Positions 14,158-28,912 of a DNA stretch of 35,375 nt are shown here, one piece after another. The translations under genes and the position numbers were made by a program. The DNA is from a virus, in the IMG/VR virus record IMGVR_UViG_3300028597_000048, positions 1-35,375 of that record, one strand, 5' to 3'. Position 1 is the first letter of the stretch; each line of letters opens with the position of its first letter. The notes under the pieces were generated by a model. The model was not told where the DNA came from. It did not search any database and saw nothing but the letters and a program-made list of their open reading frames with translations.

Positions 14158-14807
14158 ACTTCCAACTGGCCAGAGTCGAAGAACTCAATCGCCCGCTCAT
14201 GGTTGTTGGACTCAACGCTCTGGAGTTTGGCAACTACCTGCGATCAACTGCGACGGTGTCGTGTGCTCCGCCTGATGCAGGTCGGAACGCTGAGGCATAT
14301 CTCGAAAACGCCTTGAGCCCGTGGGTTGACCCGAGCGCGGAAGTCCTGTTCATCGAGGCGCATGACTACACCCGCGACTTCTTTGAGCGCCGGCAGTTCA
14401 TGCACGTCTGCAACGCTCGCCACTTCATGCTGTTCAGGCCTGAGCATTCGTCCGAGGCGCTGATGTTCCTGCGGATGAATCGACTCGATCCTAATGCGCG
14501 GCGCATCTATCGCGGCTACCAGCTCTACCAGAGCACGTTGAAGGCTCTGAACGTTGGCGCACTGTATGACGATCTGGTGCAGTGGGGTTCCTACCTGCAA
14601 CTCGTCCGCGATGTTGTGATGGCGCGCAGAATGCCGTGGAAGCGCAGCTACCTGACGCTGCTCGCGCCACGTGTCATGCTGGTTCAGTTGCTCACCGAAC
14701 CTACCATGGAAAAGATAATGTATGCACTCAAGTGTGTGCGTGACTCTTTCTCGATGGAGCTCCACCGCGATCGTTTCATCTGTGACGAACTCGACAACCT
14801 ACTGTGA
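14154..14807 (+). CDS. Hypothetical protein
   Basis: A 217-residue protein. The ATG at 14154 overlaps the stop of the preceding gene (ATGA) and is preceded by GAGGAAGG, which decides this start over the upstream in-frame one at 14055. Hydrophobic and Arg-rich helices predominate in the C-terminal half. No motif recognised. Confidence 0.78.
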   Translation: MNFQLARVEELNRPLMVVGLNALEFGNYLRSTATVSCAPPDAGRNAEAYLENALSPWVDPSAEVLFIEAHDYTRDFFERRQFMHVCNARHFMLFRPEHSSEALMFLRMNRLDPNARRIYRGYQLYQSTLKALNVGALYDDLVQWGSYLQLVRDVVMARRMPWKRSYLTLLAPRVMLVQLLTEPTMEKIMYALKCVRDSFSMELHRDRFICDELDNLL

Positions 14808-14814
14808 GGCAAGC

Positions 14815-15480
14815 ATGATTCCGCTCGAACAAGATTTGTTGCTCAACATCCTGAAGCCGCTTGGTCTGCATGTGATCCGCGGCCTCGATCACGGTACCTA
14901 CATGGACGTCGCAGGCAACACTCGCGTCGTTAACTACACCGATGTGGCCACCACCGTCGATACCGACGACGTGCGTGAGGTGATTCCACGTCTGGAGCTC
15001 AAGCTGCGCGAACTCAAGGGTGATGCGACTGCCGTGTACTTCCTCGAAGGTCACGTATCGCAGGTGTTGCTCACCAAAGTTCCGCCAGTGCCGCAGACCA
15101 CGATCACGCTCAAGGTCGCATTCGCCCGTCGCGCCGACGATCACCACCCGTGCTTCCCAGAAGTTCAGGATTTCGATTCCCTGGTTGAAAGCCAAGCGCC
15201 GCAGTCTTTCGGCACTGCTGTCGAAGCGATCAAGGCTGGCTATCGTGCCTGCCGCCAGAACTGGAACGGCAAGAATATGTTCATCTACTACGTGCCTGCG
15301 TCGACCTTCACGGTCAACCGCGCGCCGTTGGCGAGCATCTTCCCAGAAGGCAAGGTCATCAGCTACCGTGACCACATTGATATGTACACGGCGCAGGGTG
15401 ACTGCGTTGCCTGGGTTGCCAGTCAGTCGGACGTGACCGCCAACGACTGGATCATCCTTCCACGCAAGGCGGAAGTGTAA
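14815..15480 (+). CDS. Protein with C-terminal Tad2/DUF2829 (anti-Thoeris) domain
   Basis: A 221-residue protein. Residues about 130-217 match the DUF2829 family, whose founding phage member Tad2 sequesters the cyclic-ADP-ribose signal of Thoeris defence. Conserved landmarks are FGTAVEAIKAGYRACRQNWN (131-150) continuing GKNMFIYYVP, then IDMYTA (188-193) and WVASQSDVTANDWIIL (200-215). Most members are only about 90 residues long; here about 125 residues of unrecognised sequence precede the domain. The ATG at 14815 follows GAGGCA and lies eight bases after the previous stop. Cytoplasmic; acts on signal molecules if the family function is kept. The family assignment is strong; the anti-Thoeris role is inferred. 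Confidence 0.82.
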   Translation: MIPLEQDLLLNILKPLGLHVIRGLDHGTYMDVAGNTRVVNYTDVATTVDTDDVREVIPRLELKLRELKGDATAVYFLEGHVSQVLLTKVPPVPQTTITLKVAFARRADDHHPCFPEVQDFDSLVESQAPQSFGTAVEAIKAGYRACRQNWNGKNMFIYYVPASTFTVNRAPLASIFPEGKVISYRDHIDMYTAQGDCVAWVASQSDVTANDWIILPRKAEV

Positions 15481-20548: not shown

Positions 20549-20950
20549 ATGAAGCTGAACATTCTGTGGGACGACAGCGCAACGCGCACTCGCCTGCTGG
20601 ACGAACTCTGGAAAGAGAGCGTACCTGATCTGGACTTGTTTATCACCCATGCTGCGGCGAGTAGCGAGCGCACCTACCCTGAGTTCGACATTCAGGTATA
20701 CGCCACCCTGCCAAGATTCCCCGAAGTTGTCTGCTCCCAAATACGCAGGCACGATGTTCTCCACGTTGCAGCATCCACGCATGACGTGGACGCGCAAGGC
20801 TATCTGGACTTCTGTGACTACGTCCTGCGACAACATCCGGACGTCCTGATATTCGACCCATTCAACAAGGACCGCACGTATGACGAACTTGTTTCCTTCC
20901 TCCGAGAGAGCCGCGGAGGTGTTCTCGAAACTGACAACTCTGGCTGCTGA
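20549..20950 (+). CDS. Hypothetical protein
   Basis: A 133-residue acidic protein with alternating strands and helices and no recognised motif. The ATG at 20549 follows AAGGA by nine bases; the frame upstream of it crosses the terminator and is not coding. Its last 71 bases overlap the next gene in another frame. Confidence 0.75.
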   Translation: MKLNILWDDSATRTRLLDELWKESVPDLDLFITHAAASSERTYPEFDIQVYATLPRFPEVVCSQIRRHDVLHVAASTHDVDAQGYLDFCDYVLRQHPDVLIFDPFNKDRTYDELVSFLRESRGGVLETDNSGC

Positions 20951-21173
20951 AATGGGTGAGACGATTGGTGAGTTTGACCAGTCAGCCACAACGTTCAAAC
21001 GCAAGCCACCCCACGACAACGTGCGCGTCCAAGTTACGGACACTCTTCTGGTGTTCTTCGCTCGTGGACCCTACAAGGAACCACTGCGCGAGTTCTTCGA
21101 GAACCCTGTACATAGCAATGATCCAGTTAGACTGCGCAGTGCCATCCGCGCAATGGTAATACGGGAGCCCTAG
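20880..21173 (+). CDS. Small hypothetical protein
   Basis: A 97-residue protein of unrecognised family. The ATG at 20880 has AAGGA eight bases upstream, giving a 71-base overlap with the preceding gene; the alternative ATG at 20952, just past the previous stop, has no ribosome site. Its TAG lies in the loop of the following terminator. Confidence 0.65.
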   Translation: MTNLFPSSERAAEVFSKLTTLAAEMGETIGEFDQSATTFKRKPPHDNVRVQVTDTLLVFFARGPYKEPLREFFENPVHSNDPVRLRSAIRAMVIREP

Positions 21174-21188
21174 TGGTTCCCGTTTTCA
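21161..21188 (+). terminator. Rho-independent terminator
   Basis: ACGGGAGCC pairs with GGTTCCCGT (one G-U) around CTAGT, followed by TTTTC. The stop codon of the preceding gene is in the loop. Confidence 0.82.
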
Positions 21189-21231
21189 TTTCCCTTGGTA
21201 ATTTTTCCAGCATTGACTGGGAGGTTACCGT

Positions 21232-21735
21232 ATGCAAGGTCTGTTTGGAAACAACGCACCGATGAAGAAACGCAGACAGAAGCGTTCCGAGAAGTACAAG
21301 CAGTACCACTATGAGTTCCACGGTCGGCAACTGCTGGTTCAAGGCTATGAGCGCCAAGCGCTGGAGTACCTTGTCGAGAAAGGCGGATTCGATCCTGCCG
21401 ATATTCGTACCGAGTGCGAAATGGGTAACGCCTTGAACATTCGCTACAAGTACGGCAAGCGCTGGCGTACCTACATGCCCGATATCTTCATTCGTAACCA
21501 CAACATCATCGTGGAAGTGAAGTCGAAGGCGACGATGGGCCTGATCAATAACAAGAAGCGCGGCTGGAGCATGAACAAGGCGAAAGCCAAGGCATGCCAA
21601 GAGCGCGGCTTCAAGTTCTGCGTGCTGCTCATGACCGGCTCTGGTAAGCGCATCCCGTTACCGAAGCGCTGGATGTTCATGCAGAAGGATGAGTGCCTGC
21701 GCATCATGCGTGAGGAACTCGGAGTGGTGATCTAA
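21232..21735 (+). CDS. PD-(D/E)XK-type nuclease
   Basis: A 167-residue basic protein with a clear PD-(D/E)XK core: MPDIFIRNHNIIVEVKS places P83-D84, E95 and K97 on two adjacent strands, with an earlier Glu (E61/E63 region) as a possible fourth residue. The N-terminal 25 residues are strongly basic. This compact form resembles phage endonucleases of the Vsr/TnsA/T7 endonuclease I type; substrate is not predictable. GGGAGG precedes the ATG at a normal distance. It follows a terminator, so it is probably transcribed alone or with the next gene. It could also be a free-standing mobile endonuclease. Confidence 0.75.
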   Translation: MQGLFGNNAPMKKRRQKRSEKYKQYHYEFHGRQLLVQGYERQALEYLVEKGGFDPADIRTECEMGNALNIRYKYGKRWRTYMPDIFIRNHNIIVEVKSKATMGLINNKKRGWSMNKAKAKACQERGFKFCVLLMTGSGKRIPLPKRWMFMQKDECLRIMREELGVVI

Positions 21736-21736
21736 A

Positions 21737-21772
21737 CTGTAAACTCCACCTATCTCCCACACAGATAGGGTG
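21737..21772 (+). promoter_or_regulatory. CTGTAAAC motif followed by hairpin over the ribosome site
   Basis: CTGTAAAC (21737-21744) is two bases after the nuclease stop. Then CACCTATCT (21747-21755) can pair with AGATAGGGTG (21763-21772) with one bulge, covering the AGGG that would serve as ribosome site for the next gene. This suggests a promoter plus translational control; both are inferred. Confidence 0.45.
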
Positions 21773-21777
21773 CAATC

Positions 21778-21999
21778 ATGCGCGACAAGCCAAAGTCCAA
21801 TCTCAAGGATCACCTCATTCTCGCAGGTGCTGGGGTACTCGTTATCGCAGTCCTCCTAGGGGTCGTCTTCGCTATCCGCTGGTTCGGCGCAGTCACCATG
21901 CAAGACCGAATCGTAACTCCACGTGCCGGCGTTGAATGCCTCGTCGTGTCTGCGCATGACGGCGTCGGCGTGTCGTGCTATCACATTCCCAAGAACTAA
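21778..21999 (+). CDS. Small single-pass membrane protein
   Basis: A 73-residue protein with a basic N-terminus, one membrane segment (about 12-34, LILAGAGVLVIAVLLGVVFAI) and a short C-terminal domain containing two Cys (54 and 67) that could form a disulphide in the periplasm. No family recognised. The ribosome site is sequestered in a leader hairpin. Confidence 0.72.
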   Translation: MRDKPKSNLKDHLILAGAGVLVIAVLLGVVFAIRWFGAVTMQDRIVTPRAGVECLVVSAHDGVGVSCYHIPKN

Positions 22000-22014
22000 C
22001 AGGCTATTAAGCAA

Positions 22015-22827
22015 ATGGCAGAACTGACCATCAAGGACCTCAAAGAGGCCAAGTACAACCCGCGTGTCATCAGTGAAAAGCGACTGGACAACCTGCACCT
22101 GTCCATGACTACCTACGGTGACCTGTCTGGTGTCGTCTTCAACAAGAAGACCCAGAACCTAATTTCCGGTCACCAGCGCTTGAAGCGTCTGCGCGGCAAG
22201 GACGTCAAGACCAAGATCGTCACAAAGCCTGTGAAGGACGCCTTCGGTACCGTTGCAGAAGGTCACATCGTTGCGAAGACTGCGAGCGGCGAAATCCGTA
22301 TCCCACTCCGCATCGTGGACTGGAGCGACAAGAAATCCGAGATGGCGGCCAACATCGCAGCGAACGCGCACGGTGGTGACTTCGACCGTACCAAGCTGGG
22401 CGCCATGCTGGAGAAGCTCGACGCAGGCAAGTCGTTCGACGTGAACGTCCTGGGTATCGACCCACTGAGCCTGCGTGGCTTGATGCCAAAGATGCCAACG
22501 CTCGACTCCAAAGGTCGCGAAATCGACAACGATGGCGAAGGCAAGGAGTCGTTCCAAGAGTTCGGCGAGGACAGCTTCGAGTTCGAGCATTGCTGCCCGA
22601 AGTGCAAGTTCCAGTTCAACACCAGTGCCAAGTCGCAGCCTGCGGCCAAGGCTGAGCCGAAAGCTCCGAAGCTCAAGCTGAAAGAGAAAGACGGCAAGAA
22701 GGCCAAGGACACGTCGAAAGACAAAGAGAAGGTCAAGAGTAAGGACAAGGGTGACAAGCCCAAGAAATCCAAGCTCGCGGCTCCGAAGAAGACAGAGCTG
22801 AAAATGCCAGCGAAGAAAAAGAAGTAA
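22015..22827 (+). CDS. ParB/sulfiredoxin-fold protein with zinc knuckle and Lys-rich tail
   Basis: A 270-residue protein. The N-terminal ParB-like fold is shown by NPR (15-17), a short hydrophobic strand GVVFN and the phosphate-binding ISGHQRL (50-56). A CCPKCKF knuckle lies near 193-198, and the last 70 residues are mostly Lys with Ala/Pro/Asp, probably a DNA-binding tail. Proteins with this domain commonly sit beside DNA methyltransferases in phages, and some act as nucleases or NTP-dependent switches. The next gene, ten bases downstream, is a cytosine methyltransferase, so a role in target choice or in cutting unmodified DNA is plausible but inferred. Confidence 0.78.
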   Translation: MAELTIKDLKEAKYNPRVISEKRLDNLHLSMTTYGDLSGVVFNKKTQNLISGHQRLKRLRGKDVKTKIVTKPVKDAFGTVAEGHIVAKTASGEIRIPLRIVDWSDKKSEMAANIAANAHGGDFDRTKLGAMLEKLDAGKSFDVNVLGIDPLSLRGLMPKMPTLDSKGREIDNDGEGKESFQEFGEDSFEFEHCCPKCKFQFNTSAKSQPAAKAEPKAPKLKLKEKDGKKAKDTSKDKEKVKSKDKGDKPKKSKLAAPKKTELKMPAKKKK

Positions 22828-22837
22828 GGACGCAGCC

Positions 22838-23851
22838 ATGGCCAATGAGAAACGCATTCCCAAGATCCCTTCGATGAAGAAGATCAACGCGCTGCCCAAG
22901 CACTTCAAAGGCATCAGTTCTTTCAGTGGCTGTGGCGGCTCGTCTACTGGCGTGAAGATGGCGGGCATCCAAGTGCTCGCGGCTACCGAGTTCATCAAGC
23001 CGGCCATCGAAACCTACCAGAAGAACCACAAAGGTACCATGGTCATCGGCGAAGACATTCGCAAGGTTGACTGGGCAGCCATTCGCAAAGAGCTTGGCCT
23101 GAAACGTGGCCAGCTCGACTTCTCGGAAGGTAGCCCACCGTGCAAGTCCTTCTCCACGTCTGGCACTGGCAGTGATGACTGGGGCAAGGAAAAGCTGTAC
23201 AGCGAGAACGTCTACCAGCGCACAGACGACCTCTTCTACGAGGAAATGCGCAAGCTGGAAGCCTTCATGCCGAAGGTGTTTGTTTGCGAGAACGTCAAAG
23301 GCATGGTCGAGGGTGACGCGAAGGGTTACTTCGTCGAGATTCTCCGTGACCTGAAAGCGATCGGTTACAGCGTGCGTGCGCAAGTGCTCAACGCTGCGTA
23401 TCTCGGCGTGGCACAAGCCCGTGAGCGTGTGATCTTCGTCGGTGTGCGCGACGACTTGGTGAAGAAGGGTTTCAACCCTGTATTCCCAACGCCTCACAAG
23501 TATGCCATCAACGTGAACGATGTTCTGCCTCACGTGGCGTACCTGAAGTCGAAGCACAAGGGTGACCTGAAGTACGTACCTGCGTCGATCCCTTCGCCAA
23601 CGATCGTGGCCAGTGATGGTACCAACAGCGAGACTGCTGGCTTCTCCTCTGGCGGGTTCATCGAGACCCTTGATGGTGATCGCCGCAAGTACACCATCGA
23701 CGAGTTGAAGACCATTTTCACCTTCCCCGAAGACTTCATCTTCACTGGTACCTACAAGCAGCAGTTTGAACGCATCGGCCGTTCGGTACCGCCGCTCATG
23801 ATGTACCACGTCGTGCGCGAACTCCGCAAGCACATCCTCGAAAAGCTGTAA
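22838..23851 (+). CDS. C5-cytosine DNA methyltransferase-family enzyme with Arg in motif X; likely carboxymethyltransferase
   Basis: A 337-residue enzyme with all core C5-methyltransferase motifs: I FSGCGGSSTG (29-38), IV SPPCKS with catalytic C102, VI ENV (151-153), VIII QARERV (193-198) and motif X. In motif X, G-N-(A/S)-V-P-P is nearly universal; here it reads IGRSVPP, with R315 in place of the Asn. From memory of the literature, changing this same Asn to Lys in M.MpeI lets the enzyme use carboxy-SAM. The next gene is a CmoA homologue, which would supply carboxy-SAM. I therefore infer that it installs 5-carboxymethylcytosine. The target recognition region (about 215-290) is short, so target specificity is probably relaxed or short. 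Part of a unit with the ParB-like gene, closed by a terminator. Confidence 0.9.
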   Translation: MANEKRIPKIPSMKKINALPKHFKGISSFSGCGGSSTGVKMAGIQVLAATEFIKPAIETYQKNHKGTMVIGEDIRKVDWAAIRKELGLKRGQLDFSEGSPPCKSFSTSGTGSDDWGKEKLYSENVYQRTDDLFYEEMRKLEAFMPKVFVCENVKGMVEGDAKGYFVEILRDLKAIGYSVRAQVLNAAYLGVAQARERVIFVGVRDDLVKKGFNPVFPTPHKYAINVNDVLPHVAYLKSKHKGDLKYVPASIPSPTIVASDGTNSETAGFSSGGFIETLDGDRRKYTIDELKTIFTFPEDFIFTGTYKQQFERIGRSVPPLMMYHVVRELRKHILEKL

Positions 23852-23860
23852 GCCTCGCAC

Positions 23861-23886
23861 AAAGGGAGCCTCGCGCTCCCTTTTTG
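23861..23886 (+). terminator. Rho-independent terminator
   Basis: A 9-bp stem AAAGGGAGC / GCTCCCTTT continuing into TTTTTG, ten bases after the methyltransferase stop codon. Confidence 0.9.
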
Positions 23887-23897
23887 TGGCCTTGAAA

Positions 23898-23905
23898 CTG
23901 TAAAT
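23898..23905 (+). promoter_or_regulatory. CTGTAAAT motif, putative promoter of the CmoA-like unit
   Basis: CTGTAAAT lies between the terminator and the CmoA-like gene, 50 bases before the chosen ATG. It would give the cofactor gene and the ligase gene a transcript of their own. Confidence 0.42.
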
Positions 23906-23947
23906 GACCAGTAAGCCCACATGGGCATCAAACATGGAGTTACGGAC

Positions 23948-24733
23948 ATGCAACCAATCGAAACCCTGCGCGACGATCACGTACCCGGCCAGAAGTGGGA
24001 GTTCAACGAGGACGTCGCCAAGAAGTTTGACAACATGCTGGAGCGCAGCATCCCCGGCTATGGTTCGATGCGTGAATTGGTGTGGCGACTGGGCAAGAAC
24101 TTCGTCAAGACACCGTGCAACGTCATTGACCTCGGTGCAAGCCGCGGTGAAGCGAGTGCCAAGTTCATCGGTGCGTTCCCAGAAGCCCAGTTCTACCTGA
24201 GCGAAATCTCTGACCCGATGCTGGAAGAAATGCGTGGGCGCTTCGCCGATCAGTTCAACGTGCATCCGTGCAGCTACGACCTGCGCAAGAAGGCCAAAGA
24301 GATTGCTGACGCCATTCGCTGGCCGAGCGCGCACATGAGCGGCAGTGTGGAAGTCCACAAAGTGCAGACGCTGCCGACGAACCTCGTGCTGTCGATCCTC
24401 ACCATGATCTTCGTGCCGATCAACTTCCGACCATCCATTCTCAAGGGTGTGTACGATGGTCTGGAATCTGGCGGTGCCTTTTTCATGGTAGAGAAGGTGC
24501 TGGGCAACACGGCAGTGATGCAAGAACTGCTGGTCGATGCCTACCATGAGTACAAGCACGACAACGGCTATAGCTGGGAAGACATTGAGCGCAAGCGTGC
24601 AGCCCTCGAAGGTGTTCAGGTCCCAGTGACCCATGAGAACAATATCGAAATGCTGCGCACCGCTGGTTTCCGTAGCGTCGAGACGTTCTTCCGCAACCTC
24701 AACTTCGTGGGCTACATCGCCATCAAGGACTAA
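23948..24733 (+). CDS. CmoA-like carboxy-SAM synthase
   Basis: A 261-residue SAM-fold protein clearly related to CmoA, which converts SAM and prephenate to carboxy-SAM. Matches to my memory of the E. coli sequence include the N-terminal FDNMLERSIPGYGSM (27-41), motif I VIDLGASRGEAS (59-70), GVYDGLESGGAFFMVEK (167-183), DAYHEYKHDNGYSWEDIERK (197-216) and the ending FFRNLNFVGYIAIK. R217 aligns with CmoA Arg199, which binds the cofactor carboxylate. The ATG at 23948 is chosen for GGAG eight bases upstream rather than the one at 23921. In bacteria the product serves tRNA wobble modification by CmoB. Here the neighbouring DNA methyltransferase with an altered motif X suggests use on DNA. None of the phage tRNAs in this window would carry cmo5U. 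Confidence 0.87.
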   Translation: MQPIETLRDDHVPGQKWEFNEDVAKKFDNMLERSIPGYGSMRELVWRLGKNFVKTPCNVIDLGASRGEASAKFIGAFPEAQFYLSEISDPMLEEMRGRFADQFNVHPCSYDLRKKAKEIADAIRWPSAHMSGSVEVHKVQTLPTNLVLSILTMIFVPINFRPSILKGVYDGLESGGAFFMVEKVLGNTAVMQELLVDAYHEYKHDNGYSWEDIERKRAALEGVQVPVTHENNIEMLRTAGFRSVETFFRNLNFVGYIAIKD

Positions 24734-24736
24734 GCA

Positions 24737-25189
24737 ATGCGCGAACTCCAATTACTCCGCAAGCGTGTGAAAACGCTGTGGAAAATGGAAGAGGGCCTGA
24801 GCCCGAATGAGCGTCGTCTCCATCAGTGGCAAGTGTCTGCAACCCAAGCAGGCATCATGTACACCGTAGGTAAGGGCGATGCCAACACGTTCTTCTATGC
24901 CGTCAACGGCAACGATATGAAGTTCGTGATGCCAGACGTGATGATGAAGTTGCTGGACGATTGGACCAACAGCGATTACGTGGCGTACACGATCACCAAG
25001 AAGAAGGATATCAGCGGCATGCCTTTGCGCACGTCGCCAGCCGCCTTCCTCAAAGTGACGAAGGACAAGTACCTGGGTTACTACATCGTGGGCATCAAGT
25101 CCAACGGTGACATTGTTCGCCTGCACAAACTTGAAGGCGGACTCCAGGGTAACCACTGGGTCAAATTCAAAGGCAAGAAGAAACGCTAG
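24737..25189 (+). CDS. Hypothetical protein between CmoA-like and ligase genes
   Basis: A 150-residue basic protein with mixed strands and helices and no recognised motif. It starts three bases after the CmoA-like stop and ends eight bases before the ligase ATG, so it is tightly bound into that unit. It could be an accessory or recognition factor for DNA modification; nothing in the sequence shows this directly. Confidence 0.78.
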   Translation: MRELQLLRKRVKTLWKMEEGLSPNERRLHQWQVSATQAGIMYTVGKGDANTFFYAVNGNDMKFVMPDVMMKLLDDWTNSDYVAYTITKKKDISGMPLRTSPAAFLKVTKDKYLGYYIVGIKSNGDIVRLHKLEGGLQGNHWVKFKGKKKR

Positions 25190-25197
25190 GAGCGATC

Positions 25198-26055
25198 ATG
25201 GATCAGAAGACGCGAGCCAGAAAGCTCCGTAAAGCCCTCGTTGAACGGGCAGCGTCGTACGGCGTGAAGAAGGTAGCCGTGCCAATGAGCAGCGGTGTGG
25301 ATAGCCACTGCGCTCTGTTTGCTTGCCTCGAGGCTGGGTTGAAGCCGCATGTGTATAGCTTCCACCTCGAAGGTGTCGAGAGCCGTGACGTGCGCATCGC
25401 CCAGCTGACTGCGAAAGAGTTCGGGCTGCCGTTCACCAAAGTCACGTTGCCCACTGGCCAGAAGCGTTTGATGAAGGACGTCGTGAAGCTTGCCGAGTTT
25501 GGCTGCCGATCGAAGACCGACTTCGAGTGCTTCTGGCCGATGTACCATCTGCTACCTAAGATCAAAGAAGATGTGTTCTTCACTGGTCACGGTGCAGACA
25601 GCCTGTACTGCCTGAGTCGCAAAGCCTGCCAGCACTACGCTGGGCGCGAAGACGAATTCCGTGCGCTCGCCTTCTCGTCCAACAAAGCCTTCCAGAAGGG
25701 CTTGATCGAGAAGTGGTGCGCAGAGAACGGCGGCGACCTTGCGTACTGCCCGATCTTCTTCACGCCGAAGATTCTGAAAATCTTCCAGGGTGCAACACCT
25801 GCTGACCTGAACAAGCCTATCCAGAAGGCAGTCAGCCGCATGGCATTCGAGGAGTATTTCGAGCGCGTGCGTGTGTACGTTCACCAACCGTTCCAGTTGG
25901 GCGACACCGGCATCAAGGCTGGGTTCGAGGAGCATCTGCTCGAAAGCCCACTGAACACCAAAGGCTACAAGTCTGTAGTCGGCATCTACAACGAGCTGGT
26001 GCGTACTAACGGTCCAGCAGTAAGCGAACCAGATACAGGGTGGGACGACGAATGA
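25198..26055 (+). CDS. Asparagine-synthetase-like ATP-dependent (amido)ligase
   Basis: A 285-residue protein of the PP-loop ATP-pyrophosphatase superfamily, closest in layout to the C-terminal domain of asparagine synthetase B. The PP-loop is VPMSSGVDSH (28-37), and FTGHGADSLYCLS (128-140) matches the GxGxDELF region of AsnB. No N-terminal glutaminase domain is present, so the amine source would be free ammonia, another amine or a separate protein. Such enzymes adenylate a carboxylate and pass it to an amine. In this operon a carboxymethyl group on cytosine would be a fitting substrate, giving an amide or conjugate; that is inference. AGGAGC precedes the ATG; the end overlaps the next gene (ATGA). 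Confidence 0.8.
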   Translation: MDQKTRARKLRKALVERAASYGVKKVAVPMSSGVDSHCALFACLEAGLKPHVYSFHLEGVESRDVRIAQLTAKEFGLPFTKVTLPTGQKRLMKDVVKLAEFGCRSKTDFECFWPMYHLLPKIKEDVFFTGHGADSLYCLSRKACQHYAGREDEFRALAFSSNKAFQKGLIEKWCAENGGDLAYCPIFFTPKILKIFQGATPADLNKPIQKAVSRMAFEEYFERVRVYVHQPFQLGDTGIKAGFEEHLLESPLNTKGYKSVVGIYNELVRTNGPAVSEPDTGWDDE

Positions 26056-26687
26056 GCACCGTGATGACCAAGTACACTCGGATCAACCTGAACACGGCCG
26101 AGCTGTACTTCAAGCAAGCCTGCGCCGAACTCTACCCAACGTTCGATCACCCGAACAAGGCACAGTTGCGCGCAGCCTACGACAAGATCATGGACGGCGG
26201 TGTTGAGCGTCCAGACTTCGAGCGTCCTGCCGAGTGTCCTGCCCTGACGCCTCTCCAGATCGAGTTCGCAGAAGGCGTAGCCAAGTTGGTTGAAGAATAC
26301 TTCGACTCGGCATCACCAAGCGCGACCGCAGTGCACACATTCCTCGCGTTCGAAGGCCTCGACCCGAAAGAAGGCTACCACATCAGCGAAGACAAGCATG
26401 TGATCGACCTGTTCGCTCGCTTCGTTGACCTCGGCAAAGGTGCCTACGACTACATCGCTCGCCGTGCAATCCAGCAGACCCACGTCGATCCACGTTTCAT
26501 CGTGATCCGTTTGGCTGACGACTGCAAGCGCTACGGTGTGCGTACTCTGCGCGCTCCAACGTCGGAAGGTGAAGTGATGTTCAGCCTTGATCCGCTTGAG
26601 CACCACAAGAAGTTCGACAACCAAATCTTCATCCCAGCGATCGGCGGTTACTACGGCATCGTTGGCAAGACTCGTTCCGAGGGCTGA
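26052..26687 (+). CDS. Hypothetical protein
   Basis: A 211-residue acidic protein of unrecognised family, coupled to the ligase gene by an ATGA overlap. It begins with a helical region and has a stretch of conserved-looking Asp/His/Arg (about 155-195), but no motif I can name. Coupling suggests a link to the modification genes or simply operon packing. Confidence 0.8.
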   Translation: MSTVMTKYTRINLNTAELYFKQACAELYPTFDHPNKAQLRAAYDKIMDGGVERPDFERPAECPALTPLQIEFAEGVAKLVEEYFDSASPSATAVHTFLAFEGLDPKEGYHISEDKHVIDLFARFVDLGKGAYDYIARRAIQQTHVDPRFIVIRLADDCKRYGVRTLRAPTSEGEVMFSLDPLEHHKKFDNQIFIPAIGGYYGIVGKTRSEG

Positions 26688-26689
26688 CC

Positions 26690-27298
26690 ATGTCTCAGTT
26701 CAAACTGAAAGACTTCCCGATGCTGGAGTACGACTATCCGACCGATCAGATCGAACGCTCTGGTGGCATCAGTCAGGACACACGCTACGACTACGTTGCC
26801 AGTTCGTTTCTCAACGGCCTGATCAACTACGGCAAGAATCACAAGTGGTTCCTGCTGGCACGCTACGGGCTGGAGAAGCCTGAGGCTGAACGTGTCGATG
26901 ACGACGATGACAACGACGCCAACTGGATTGCACCCACCGAAGCGAACTACCAAGCGTTTGCTGATCGCGTGACCGCAGATCGTATGCAGTGCTTCAAGCC
27001 CATCGGCGATGACTGGCTGGTGCTGTACGAAACCGAGGCCAGCTACTTCTTCATGTGGTATGACCAAGACAGCAGCGATTGCAGCGTCGAGCGCTTCTGC
27101 CGCCGTTCGCTTGCCGATCCTGTGTACGGCATCACCACATTCGAGCAATTCGTCGAGGCACGTATTTCCTGGTTCAAGGAAGCTCACTTCGGCGAGAGCG
27201 AGCGTTGCGGCTACTACCCGCAAGGCCAAACACCACAAGAGCGTGTTGACATCCTTGTCAGCCCAGCCCAACAACCGAGAGGCTGGTTCAGCTCGTAA
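26690..27298 (+). CDS. Hypothetical protein
   Basis: A 202-residue acidic protein with an Asp-rich patch VDDDDDNDAN (69-78), many aromatic residues and a C-terminal Pro/Gln-rich tail. It starts two bases after the previous stop. No domain recognised. Confidence 0.8.
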   Translation: MSQFKLKDFPMLEYDYPTDQIERSGGISQDTRYDYVASSFLNGLINYGKNHKWFLLARYGLEKPEAERVDDDDDNDANWIAPTEANYQAFADRVTADRMQCFKPIGDDWLVLYETEASYFFMWYDQDSSDCSVERFCRRSLADPVYGITTFEQFVEARISWFKEAHFGESERCGYYPQGQTPQERVDILVSPAQQPRGWFSS

Positions 27299-27307
27299 GG
27301 AATTCCC

Positions 27308-28333
27308 ATGGCCAAGAAAGACAAAGAGAAGAAAAAGGAGAAGAAGTCCAAGTCTCCTGCGATGATGGCAATCCAGAAGGACAGCTACATCATCGTGCGT
27401 GTTGGCACCAAGCATCATCTGTGCCTCGCGATCAACCCTGAGCGCAATCGCGCAGTGATCGACCGCACTCTGGCTGACGAAGAACACCAGACCATCGAGT
27501 ACGATGACCAAACACTGGTCGCCAACCTCGGTCTGAACCCGAAGCCAGGCGGCAATGCGTTTGGTGTGAAGATCAACCCGTACATCACCAGCGTCGATTC
27601 CAAGTACGGGCCGATGCACTTCTTCCGTGTGCTGGAAGACCTGGAGAAGAAAGCGCTCAAGTCTGCGCTGCGTCGTACCTACGATGCGATGCTGGAGAAC
27701 AACCTGAACATCTTCCCGCTGGGTAGCATCAAGCTGTTCCCGAAGCGGGGCAAGTACGCAGGTTGCTACCACATCAAGCGCTCCATGAGCGAGTTCACTG
27801 ACGGCATCGACCTGTACCCAGACACGTTCACCGACCGTGCGTACAACGAGTATGTCCTGTACCACGAGTACGCGCACGCCGTCTGGTTCCGCATGGTACC
27901 GGGTGCGTACAAGGCGCGCTGGATCAAGCTCTACCACAAGCGTCTGGAGCTGAACAGCATCCTGAAAGATCGGTTGGAGTCGATGCTTGGCGAACTGATC
28001 GAGTTCAGCGGCACGTTCAAGGAATTCTATAAAGAGCTTGAAGATCAAGACTCTCTGGTATTCCGTGAAGTGCTCAGCCACTACAAGCGCTACCACAAGC
28101 TCGACGGCCGCAGCCTCGAAATCCTCTACCTCGAGGACAGCGAGAAGTTTGCCTCGATGTGGCCGAAGCGTACCACGATCGTTGAGTCGCGTCCTGATCT
28201 GTCCGAATACTCCATGGTGAGCCCGGACGAGTTCTTTGCAGAGGCATTCGCATTCCACATGACTGGGAAGACGATGCCTAAAGACATTACCAAGGCTATG
28301 GAGAAAACCCTGAAGGCGCTCCAGAGCATCTAA
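27308..28333 (+). CDS. Putative zinc metallopeptidase (HEXXH)
   Basis: A 341-residue protein with a very basic N-terminus (first 17 residues largely Lys/Glu) and a zincin motif HEYAH at 186-190, followed about 115 residues later by DEFFAEAFAFH (307-317), where a Glu (308 or 312) can be the third zinc ligand. The arrangement resembles gluzincins, including the anthrax-lethal-factor-like and ImmA/IrrE-like groups. There is no signal peptide, so it would act in the infected cell or as a virion-associated protease. Targets are unknown: head-protein maturation and cleavage of a host regulator are both possible. It lies in the same direction as, and close to, its neighbours. Confidence 0.72.
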   Translation: MAKKDKEKKKEKKSKSPAMMAIQKDSYIIVRVGTKHHLCLAINPERNRAVIDRTLADEEHQTIEYDDQTLVANLGLNPKPGGNAFGVKINPYITSVDSKYGPMHFFRVLEDLEKKALKSALRRTYDAMLENNLNIFPLGSIKLFPKRGKYAGCYHIKRSMSEFTDGIDLYPDTFTDRAYNEYVLYHEYAHAVWFRMVPGAYKARWIKLYHKRLELNSILKDRLESMLGELIEFSGTFKEFYKELEDQDSLVFREVLSHYKRYHKLDGRSLEILYLEDSEKFASMWPKRTTIVESRPDLSEYSMVSPDEFFAEAFAFHMTGKTMPKDITKAMEKTLKALQSI

Positions 28334-28345
28334 AGGAGTTCACTG

Positions 28346-28912
28346 ATGAACGACCTCGCTACCTTGAAGTCCCTTACGAACATTATGCCGATCGCTACTC
28401 TCGGCAATCGCCCGCGTGACATTGCGTTCAACCGCTTCAAGTTTGAACGCCTCAGCGCGCACGGCTCTGTGGAAAACGGCATCGTCCTGACAATCAACGA
28501 CGACGCCTTCGAAGATGTTGAGGAGTGGATGGACTACATCCACTCGCCCATTGGAACTCAGACGGTGCATCGCACTGCTACAGCTGAGGACCTGCAGAGC
28601 CTATCGTTGGCTATGCCTGCAAATATGCTGCGCAAACGCAACGTCACCAACTACGTGACGATGCTGACCGACGACAAAGTGGTGTTTCGTTTCGTGACGG
28701 CTCGGTGGCGAGGCGTGGACTATCCGATCGAAGAACTCAATCGGTACTTCACCCAGCTGCGACTCGCGTACTACCTGAGCGACGAAGTGGGCGTTATTGA
28801 TCTGCGAATTGCGCTGGGTAGTGTAAACCATCATTACACCAGCATACATCAACTCGAGGACATCCTGTACACGATGGCCTACCATTTCTTCCGCGAAGAT
28901 ACGGAGCTCTAA
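28346..28912 (+). CDS. Hypothetical protein upstream of clamp loader
   Basis: A 188-residue protein of unrecognised family with AAAGGAG before the ATG. It looks alpha/beta and has no metal or nucleotide motif. It lies four bases before the clamp-loader gene, so probably part of the replication-recombination unit that runs to 35026. Confidence 0.78.
   Translation: MNDLATLKSLTNIMPIATLGNRPRDIAFNRFKFERLSAHGSVENGIVLTINDDAFEDVEEWMDYIHSPIGTQTVHRTATAEDLQSLSLAMPANMLRKRNVTNYVTMLTDDKVVFRFVTARWRGVDYPIEELNRYFTQLRLAYYLSDEVGVIDLRIALGSVNHHYTSIHQLEDILYTMAYHFFREDTEL

Follow-up and report, generated by a model that had tools for sequence, protein, structure and literature searches.

A PaBG-like jumbo-phage fragment carrying a CmoA-CmoX-CmoY DNA hypermodification cluster that very probably makes a carboxymethylcytosine amide

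The window analysed here is an entire IMG/VR virus record of 35,375 bases, of which near-identical contigs are present in other IMG/VR records. Between positions 22015 and 26055 of its + strand, five genes follow each other in the order ParB-like protein, CmoX, CmoA, p150 and CmoY-like ligase:

22015..22827, + strand: ParB-like protein (ParBc), directly upstream of CmoX (phrog_620 ParB-like, E 2e-33)
22838..23851, + strand: CmoX, predicted DNA cytosine C5-carboxymethyltransferase (PF00145, E 1e-49; best PDB match 8yf3)
23861..23883, + strand: terminator-like hairpin AAAGGGAGC-CTCGC-GCTCCCTTT, then TTG, from the fold of 23850-23895, separating CmoX from CmoA
23948..24733 (ORF open from ATG 23921), + strand: CmoA, predicted carboxy-SAM synthase (phrog_4752, TIGR00740)
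24737..25189, + strand: p150, conserved 150-aa protein linked to CmoA and CmoY (phrog_23597, E 3e-47)
25198..26055, + strand: CmoY-like single-domain PP-loop (AMP-forming) amide ligase (PF00733 Asn_synthase, E 8e-7)

The ParB-like protein matches PF02195 weakly, with 16.3 bits and under the cut-off; its gene adjoins CmoX also in Pseudomonas phage PaBG, Yersinia phage fHe-Yen9-02 and Streptomyces phage TurkishDelight. The hairpin has a calculated stability of -20.9 kcal/mol (z -3.47; equally stable in 0/200 shuffles of the folded window 23850-23895) and was not detected by a simple terminator scan. Its position between the codirectional CmoX and CmoA genes, which are separated by about 70-97 bp depending on the CmoA start, argues against one simple transcript. 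A promoter search of positions 20800-28500 found no sigma-70-like site. Two further genes of the window were noted in passing. Upstream of the ParB gene, positions 21232-21735 encode a TnsA/PD-(D/E)XK-like endonuclease (DUF7487) with 76-78% identity to proteins of PaBG and of the related contig L358, which could cut unmodified DNA, and the product of positions 14722-15480 has at its C-terminus a Tad2-like domain, associated with Thoeris anti-defence (PF11195, E 1.5e-21).

CmoX is a full-length homologue of C5-cytosine methyltransferases (337 aa; Pfam DNA_methylase), preceded immediately by a GTAAGGA ribosome-binding site and scoring above the cut-off for TIGR00675 dcm. It contains the motifs SPPC (Cys102) and ENV (Glu151) and a motif X reading IGRSVPP (Arg315), in accordance with the preliminary description of this DNA as encoding a complete enzyme with an altered motif X. 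The additional statement that Asn is near-universal at this position does not apply to phage enzymes, as a large group of SPPC-type phage C5-methyltransferases contains Met. A PDB sequence search retrieved CmoX of Synechococcus phage S-B43 (SpCmoX, 8YF3) as the top match with E 4.8e-58, followed by M.HaeIII with E 2e-23. In the alignment F29, E51, F52, D73, C102 and R315 of the window protein correspond to F25, E47, F48, D69, C98 and R350 of SpCmoX, and S99, P100, P101 and C102 to S95-C98, so that every residue assigned to cofactor binding or catalysis in SpCmoX (PMC12783734) is conserved. Among the homologues collected, CmoX is interrupted by an intein (Hint/Intein_splicing matches) in Erwinia phage Yoloswag (L018:2663-4768), where the insertion point immediately precedes the catalytic Cys of the SPPC motif, and in Yersinia phage fHe-Yen9-02 (L182:16004-18082). 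In Staphylococcus phage vB-SscS-F1 (L022:5980-8498) cmoA, a CmoY-like ligase and a C5-methyltransferase are consecutive, and the motif X region of the latter reads VGGVINQ, without Arg; this enzyme may be a CmoX variant to which the R350 rule does not apply.

The CmoA homologue (ORF 23921-24733, + strand) matches phrog_4752 with E 7e-71 and, in the PDB, the CmoA/YecO structures 1im8 (E 2e-27) and 4gek (E 3e-25). Against the NCBIfam profile TIGR00740 for CmoA it scores E 1e-37 over residues 25-269, its 129.7 bits lying below the equivalog cut-off of 193.3, as might be expected of a diverged phage clade. Of the two candidate starts, ATG 23921 and ATG 23948, the second is preceded by the better ribosome-binding site, a GGAG located about 8 nt before it. 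The preliminary description had aligned R217 with Arg199 of Escherichia coli CmoA, and the alignment bears this out: R217, counted from ATG 23948, is R226 when counted from the first ATG, and E191 in the latter numbering aligns with E. coli E164 (E. coli numbering taken from 4gek minus its 14-residue tag). In the E. coli enzyme R199 forms a salt bridge with the carboxylate of carboxy-SAM (Cx-SAM), and the roles of R199 and E164 have been described (PMC3663124). The proven Cx-SAM synthase of S-B43, SpCmoA (L017:7255-7950), has a Glu in the R199 column, which implies that R199 is neither a strict marker nor an absolute requirement of Cx-SAM synthases.

Co-occurrence of a motif X Arg with cmoA had been set beforehand as a check on the preliminary description. 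Three independent queries (CmoX type; SPPC type with Met; GFPC/GPPC type with Asn) were used to gather C5-methyltransferases from viral contigs. The enzymes of annotated phages were added to these, and after removal of duplicates each protein was checked for a CmoA in its locus. In the main count, which left out loci fetched by way of CmoA and covers loci with differing flank lengths, CmoA accompanies 45/47 Arg-type enzymes and 0/155 of the Asn, Met and Leu types (Fisher p 5e-43; IMG/VR and phage C5-methyltransferases), the 45/47 not being independent events because the Arg-type enzymes form one related family. With CmoA-seeded loci added, 62 Arg-type enzymes have a CmoA in the locus and 3 lack it; one of the three, that of Erwinia phage Yoloswag, has its CmoA elsewhere in the genome.

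These features closely resemble a system reported in December 2025 for S-B43 (Yang et al., Nat Commun 17:281; PMC12783734). There, CmoA makes Cx-SAM, and SpCmoX, a C5-methyltransferase homologue with Arg350 where M.HhaI has Asn304, carboxymethylates cytosine in GC. SpCmoX uses Cx-SAM only, its R350N variant is inactive and its crystal structure is 8YF3 (PMC12783734). SpCmoY, an asparagine-synthetase-like ligase, then joins glycine to the carboxymethyl group; S-B43 virion DNA contains 5-glycylcarboxymethyl-dC (5gcxmdC), free 5cxmdC was not detected in it, and the modification introduced by SpCmoX was shown to protect from HhaI (PMC12783734). In the same study 5,615 CmoX candidates defined by SPPC and R350 were found in IMG/VR, UniProt and MGnify, often together with CmoA, a ligase and ParBc (PMC12783734). 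The window, itself from IMG/VR, has all four. As in S-B43, a Cx-SAM synthase homologue, a CmoX with motif X Arg and SPPC and a single-domain AMP-forming ligase are clustered in a phage, and the ParBc neighbour is shared with many of the published CmoX contigs. Sequence identity to the S-B43 proteins amounts to about 39% for CmoX and about 31% for CmoA and CmoY; the gene order differs (ParB-X-A-p150-Y in the window, A-Y-X in S-B43), p150 is extra in the window, and the window CmoA keeps the R199-type Arg which SpCmoA lacks.

A named relative is Pseudomonas phage PaBG (Baikalvirus), which has the same genes in the same order (PaBG_00176-00180), with protein identities of 89% for CmoX, 70% for CmoA, 53% for p150 and 82% for CmoY. 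The PaBG annotation names them only DNA cytosine methylase, tRNA (cmo5U34)-methyltransferase or asparagine synthase; the two genome papers of this phage were found to contain no DNA modification chemistry. A basic motif X residue is also known from the engineered M.MpeI N374K variant, in which it lets the C5-methyltransferase fold use Cx-SAM and yields 5-carboxymethylcytosine (PMC12783734), in agreement with the preliminary description, according to which replacing this Asn by Lys is reported to permit carboxy-SAM use. M.MpeI N374K differs from the window enzyme in having an engineered Lys instead of a natural Arg, a CG target and neither a dedicated CmoA nor a ligase. With the bacterial CmoA/CmoB pathway to tRNA cmo5U34 the window shares a CmoA with the R199 and E164 equivalents; the acceptor enzyme is a DNA C5-methyltransferase homologue in the window and CmoB in the bacterial pathway.

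Based on homology, residue conservation and co-occurrence, the window is thus very probably part of the genome of a PaBG-like (Baikalvirus-like) jumbo phage whose CmoA-CmoX-CmoY hypermodification cluster makes an amide of carboxymethylcytosine, with all of the chemistry transferred by analogy from S-B43. In the proposed scenario, CmoA would convert SAM and host prephenate to Cx-SAM, the carboxylate of which would be bound by the motif X Arg315 of CmoX. Via the covalent mechanism with Cys102, CmoX would transfer the carboxymethyl group onto C5 of cytosine in phage DNA to form 5-carboxymethylcytosine. The CmoY-like ligase would subsequently adenylate the carboxylate with ATP and couple an amine to it, yielding the amide, for which glycine is the precedent only. 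By analogy, the modified base would most likely shield the phage DNA from host restriction. The preliminary description had let the phage convert cytosine to 5-carboxymethylcytosine, and in kind this proposal agrees with the S-B43 system, with 8YF3 as best match and with the tie between Arg and CmoA, all pointing in this direction at the level of sequence; it was incomplete in that the CmoY-type ligase had been missed. Given this ligase, the pathway probably passes through free 5-carboxymethylcytosine and ends at its amide.

The ligase (25198-26055, 285 aa) scores above the cut-off for PF00733 and is devoid of a glutaminase domain. Aligned with SpCmoY over 263 aa, it shows 31% identity and the same FHLE, FEC, GxGAD, NKPxQK and QLG motifs, and it belongs to a supported subclade separate from that of SpCmoY, so that the amine may not be glycine. 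Coupling of another amine (an amino acid, ammonia or a small amine) to give a new amide would be a variant of, and compatible with, the pathway outlined above, and we give it a little less than an even chance. It would be in line with the distance to SpCmoY, with the ligase clusters of differing active-site residues and unassigned amines described by Yang et al. (PMC12783734) and with an apparent ligase swap: the relative L358 (the same contig as L008) has a CmoX 85% identical to that of the window, yet its ligase is just 35% identical. Against another amine, the window ligase has the same single-domain build and the same main motifs as SpCmoY, and single-domain SpCmoY-type clusters are predicted to bind an alpha-amino acid (PMC12783734).

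In L358 (L358:7352-9145) the ligase gene is followed by one for a 2OG-Fe(II) dioxygenase (PF13640, E 3e-15). Ligases of the same clade occur together with a PF13640 dioxygenase in Salmonella phage Sen-NF (L024:5953-7473) and in the Erwinia phages Yoloswag (L377) and Y3 (L367), and in every case seen of this distinct CmoY-like clade the dioxygenase comes next. The pairing suggests, from gene neighbourhood, ligation followed by hydroxylation in those phages; no description of the ligase exchange or of the dioxygenase pairing was found in open-licence PMC papers. Sen-NF has ligase and dioxygenase, yet the named organisms for which tblastn found a CmoA do not include Salmonella, and the CmoY-like ligase of this phage may act on another carboxylated base. 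In Alexandravirus phages (L181:3016-6250) CmoA and the ligase are separated by three unannotated genes of about 315-420 aa, which possibly encode further tailoring enzymes.

The third gene downstream of the ParB-like gene, p150, appears to be firmly associated with the cluster. A search of IMG/VR viral contigs with p150 only yielded 26 loci, and CmoA and CmoY were found within 10 kb in 26/26, a linkage for which shared descent accounts in part because many of the p150-bearing phages are related. A functional link is supported by the reshuffled gene order, as the orders X-A-p150-Y, X-Y-A-p150, X-Y-p150-A, X-A-Y-p150 and A-Y-p150 with ParB-X elsewhere were all observed. In annotated phages 53 p150 records were found, with the same counts per organism as the CmoA records from jumbo phages. 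An AlphaFold2 model calculated with sequences from the collection loci only reached a pLDDT of 88 and matched no PDB fold at E<=0.001. Assignment of a known function was rejected, since the sequence searches of Pfam (best E 0.07), NCBIfam, PADLOC and the PDB were negative as well, and no description of p150 was found in open-licence PMC papers. As a tentative extension, which we consider rather unlikely in its entirety, p150 might be an obligately linked extra component in PaBG and Alexandra/Yoloswag-type jumbo phages. Amide formation would be modular in these phages, with close relatives exchanging ligase subtypes, one of which would work with a 2-oxoglutarate dioxygenase that hydroxylates the attached amine; the amide of the window would then differ from that of S-B43, and p150 would act in its formation.

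It is improbable that, as in the preliminary description, CmoA and CmoX alone determine the final base and leave free 5-carboxymethylcytosine in the virion DNA, the neighbouring ligase serving otherwise. In the S-B43 system CmoX and CmoA do need no further enzyme to make 5cxmC (PMC12783734), phage S-CRM01 has adjoining CmoA and CmoX genes with no ligase annotated beside them, and CmoY was seen in only 13/47 Arg-type loci within the fetched stretches, many of which are short. However, a CmoY homologue lies two genes downstream in the window, in an order kept in PaBG, and S-B43 virions gave the glycine amide only, 5cxmdC itself being undetected (PMC12783734). That the methyltransferase makes ordinary 5-methylcytosine and owes its motif X residue to chance, with the adjacent CmoA serving tRNA cmo5U, is hardly credible despite the plain names given by the profile libraries (dcm, tRNA methyltransferase) and the tRNA genes in the neighbourhood: SpCmoX with the same Arg takes Cx-SAM only (PMC12783734), a chance substitution is rejected because Arg tracks CmoA (p 5e-43), and the tRNA role is rejected because profiling of the cluster genes found no CmoB and CmoA has a CmoX as its partner.

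The system as such was already published in December 2025 and the window represents a further member of it, not an unreported one; the novelty lies with the host group, p150 and the amine. With p150 and the pairing of ligase and dioxygenase, both absent from the open-licence PMC literature searched, there are leads to new modified bases. The carboxymethylcytosine-based hypermodification very probably encoded here extends 5-carboxymethylcytosine chemistry from a cyanophage to the PaBG jumbo-phage group, in which PaBG, growing on Pseudomonas aeruginosa PAO1, provides a cultured relative that allows direct chemical measurement.
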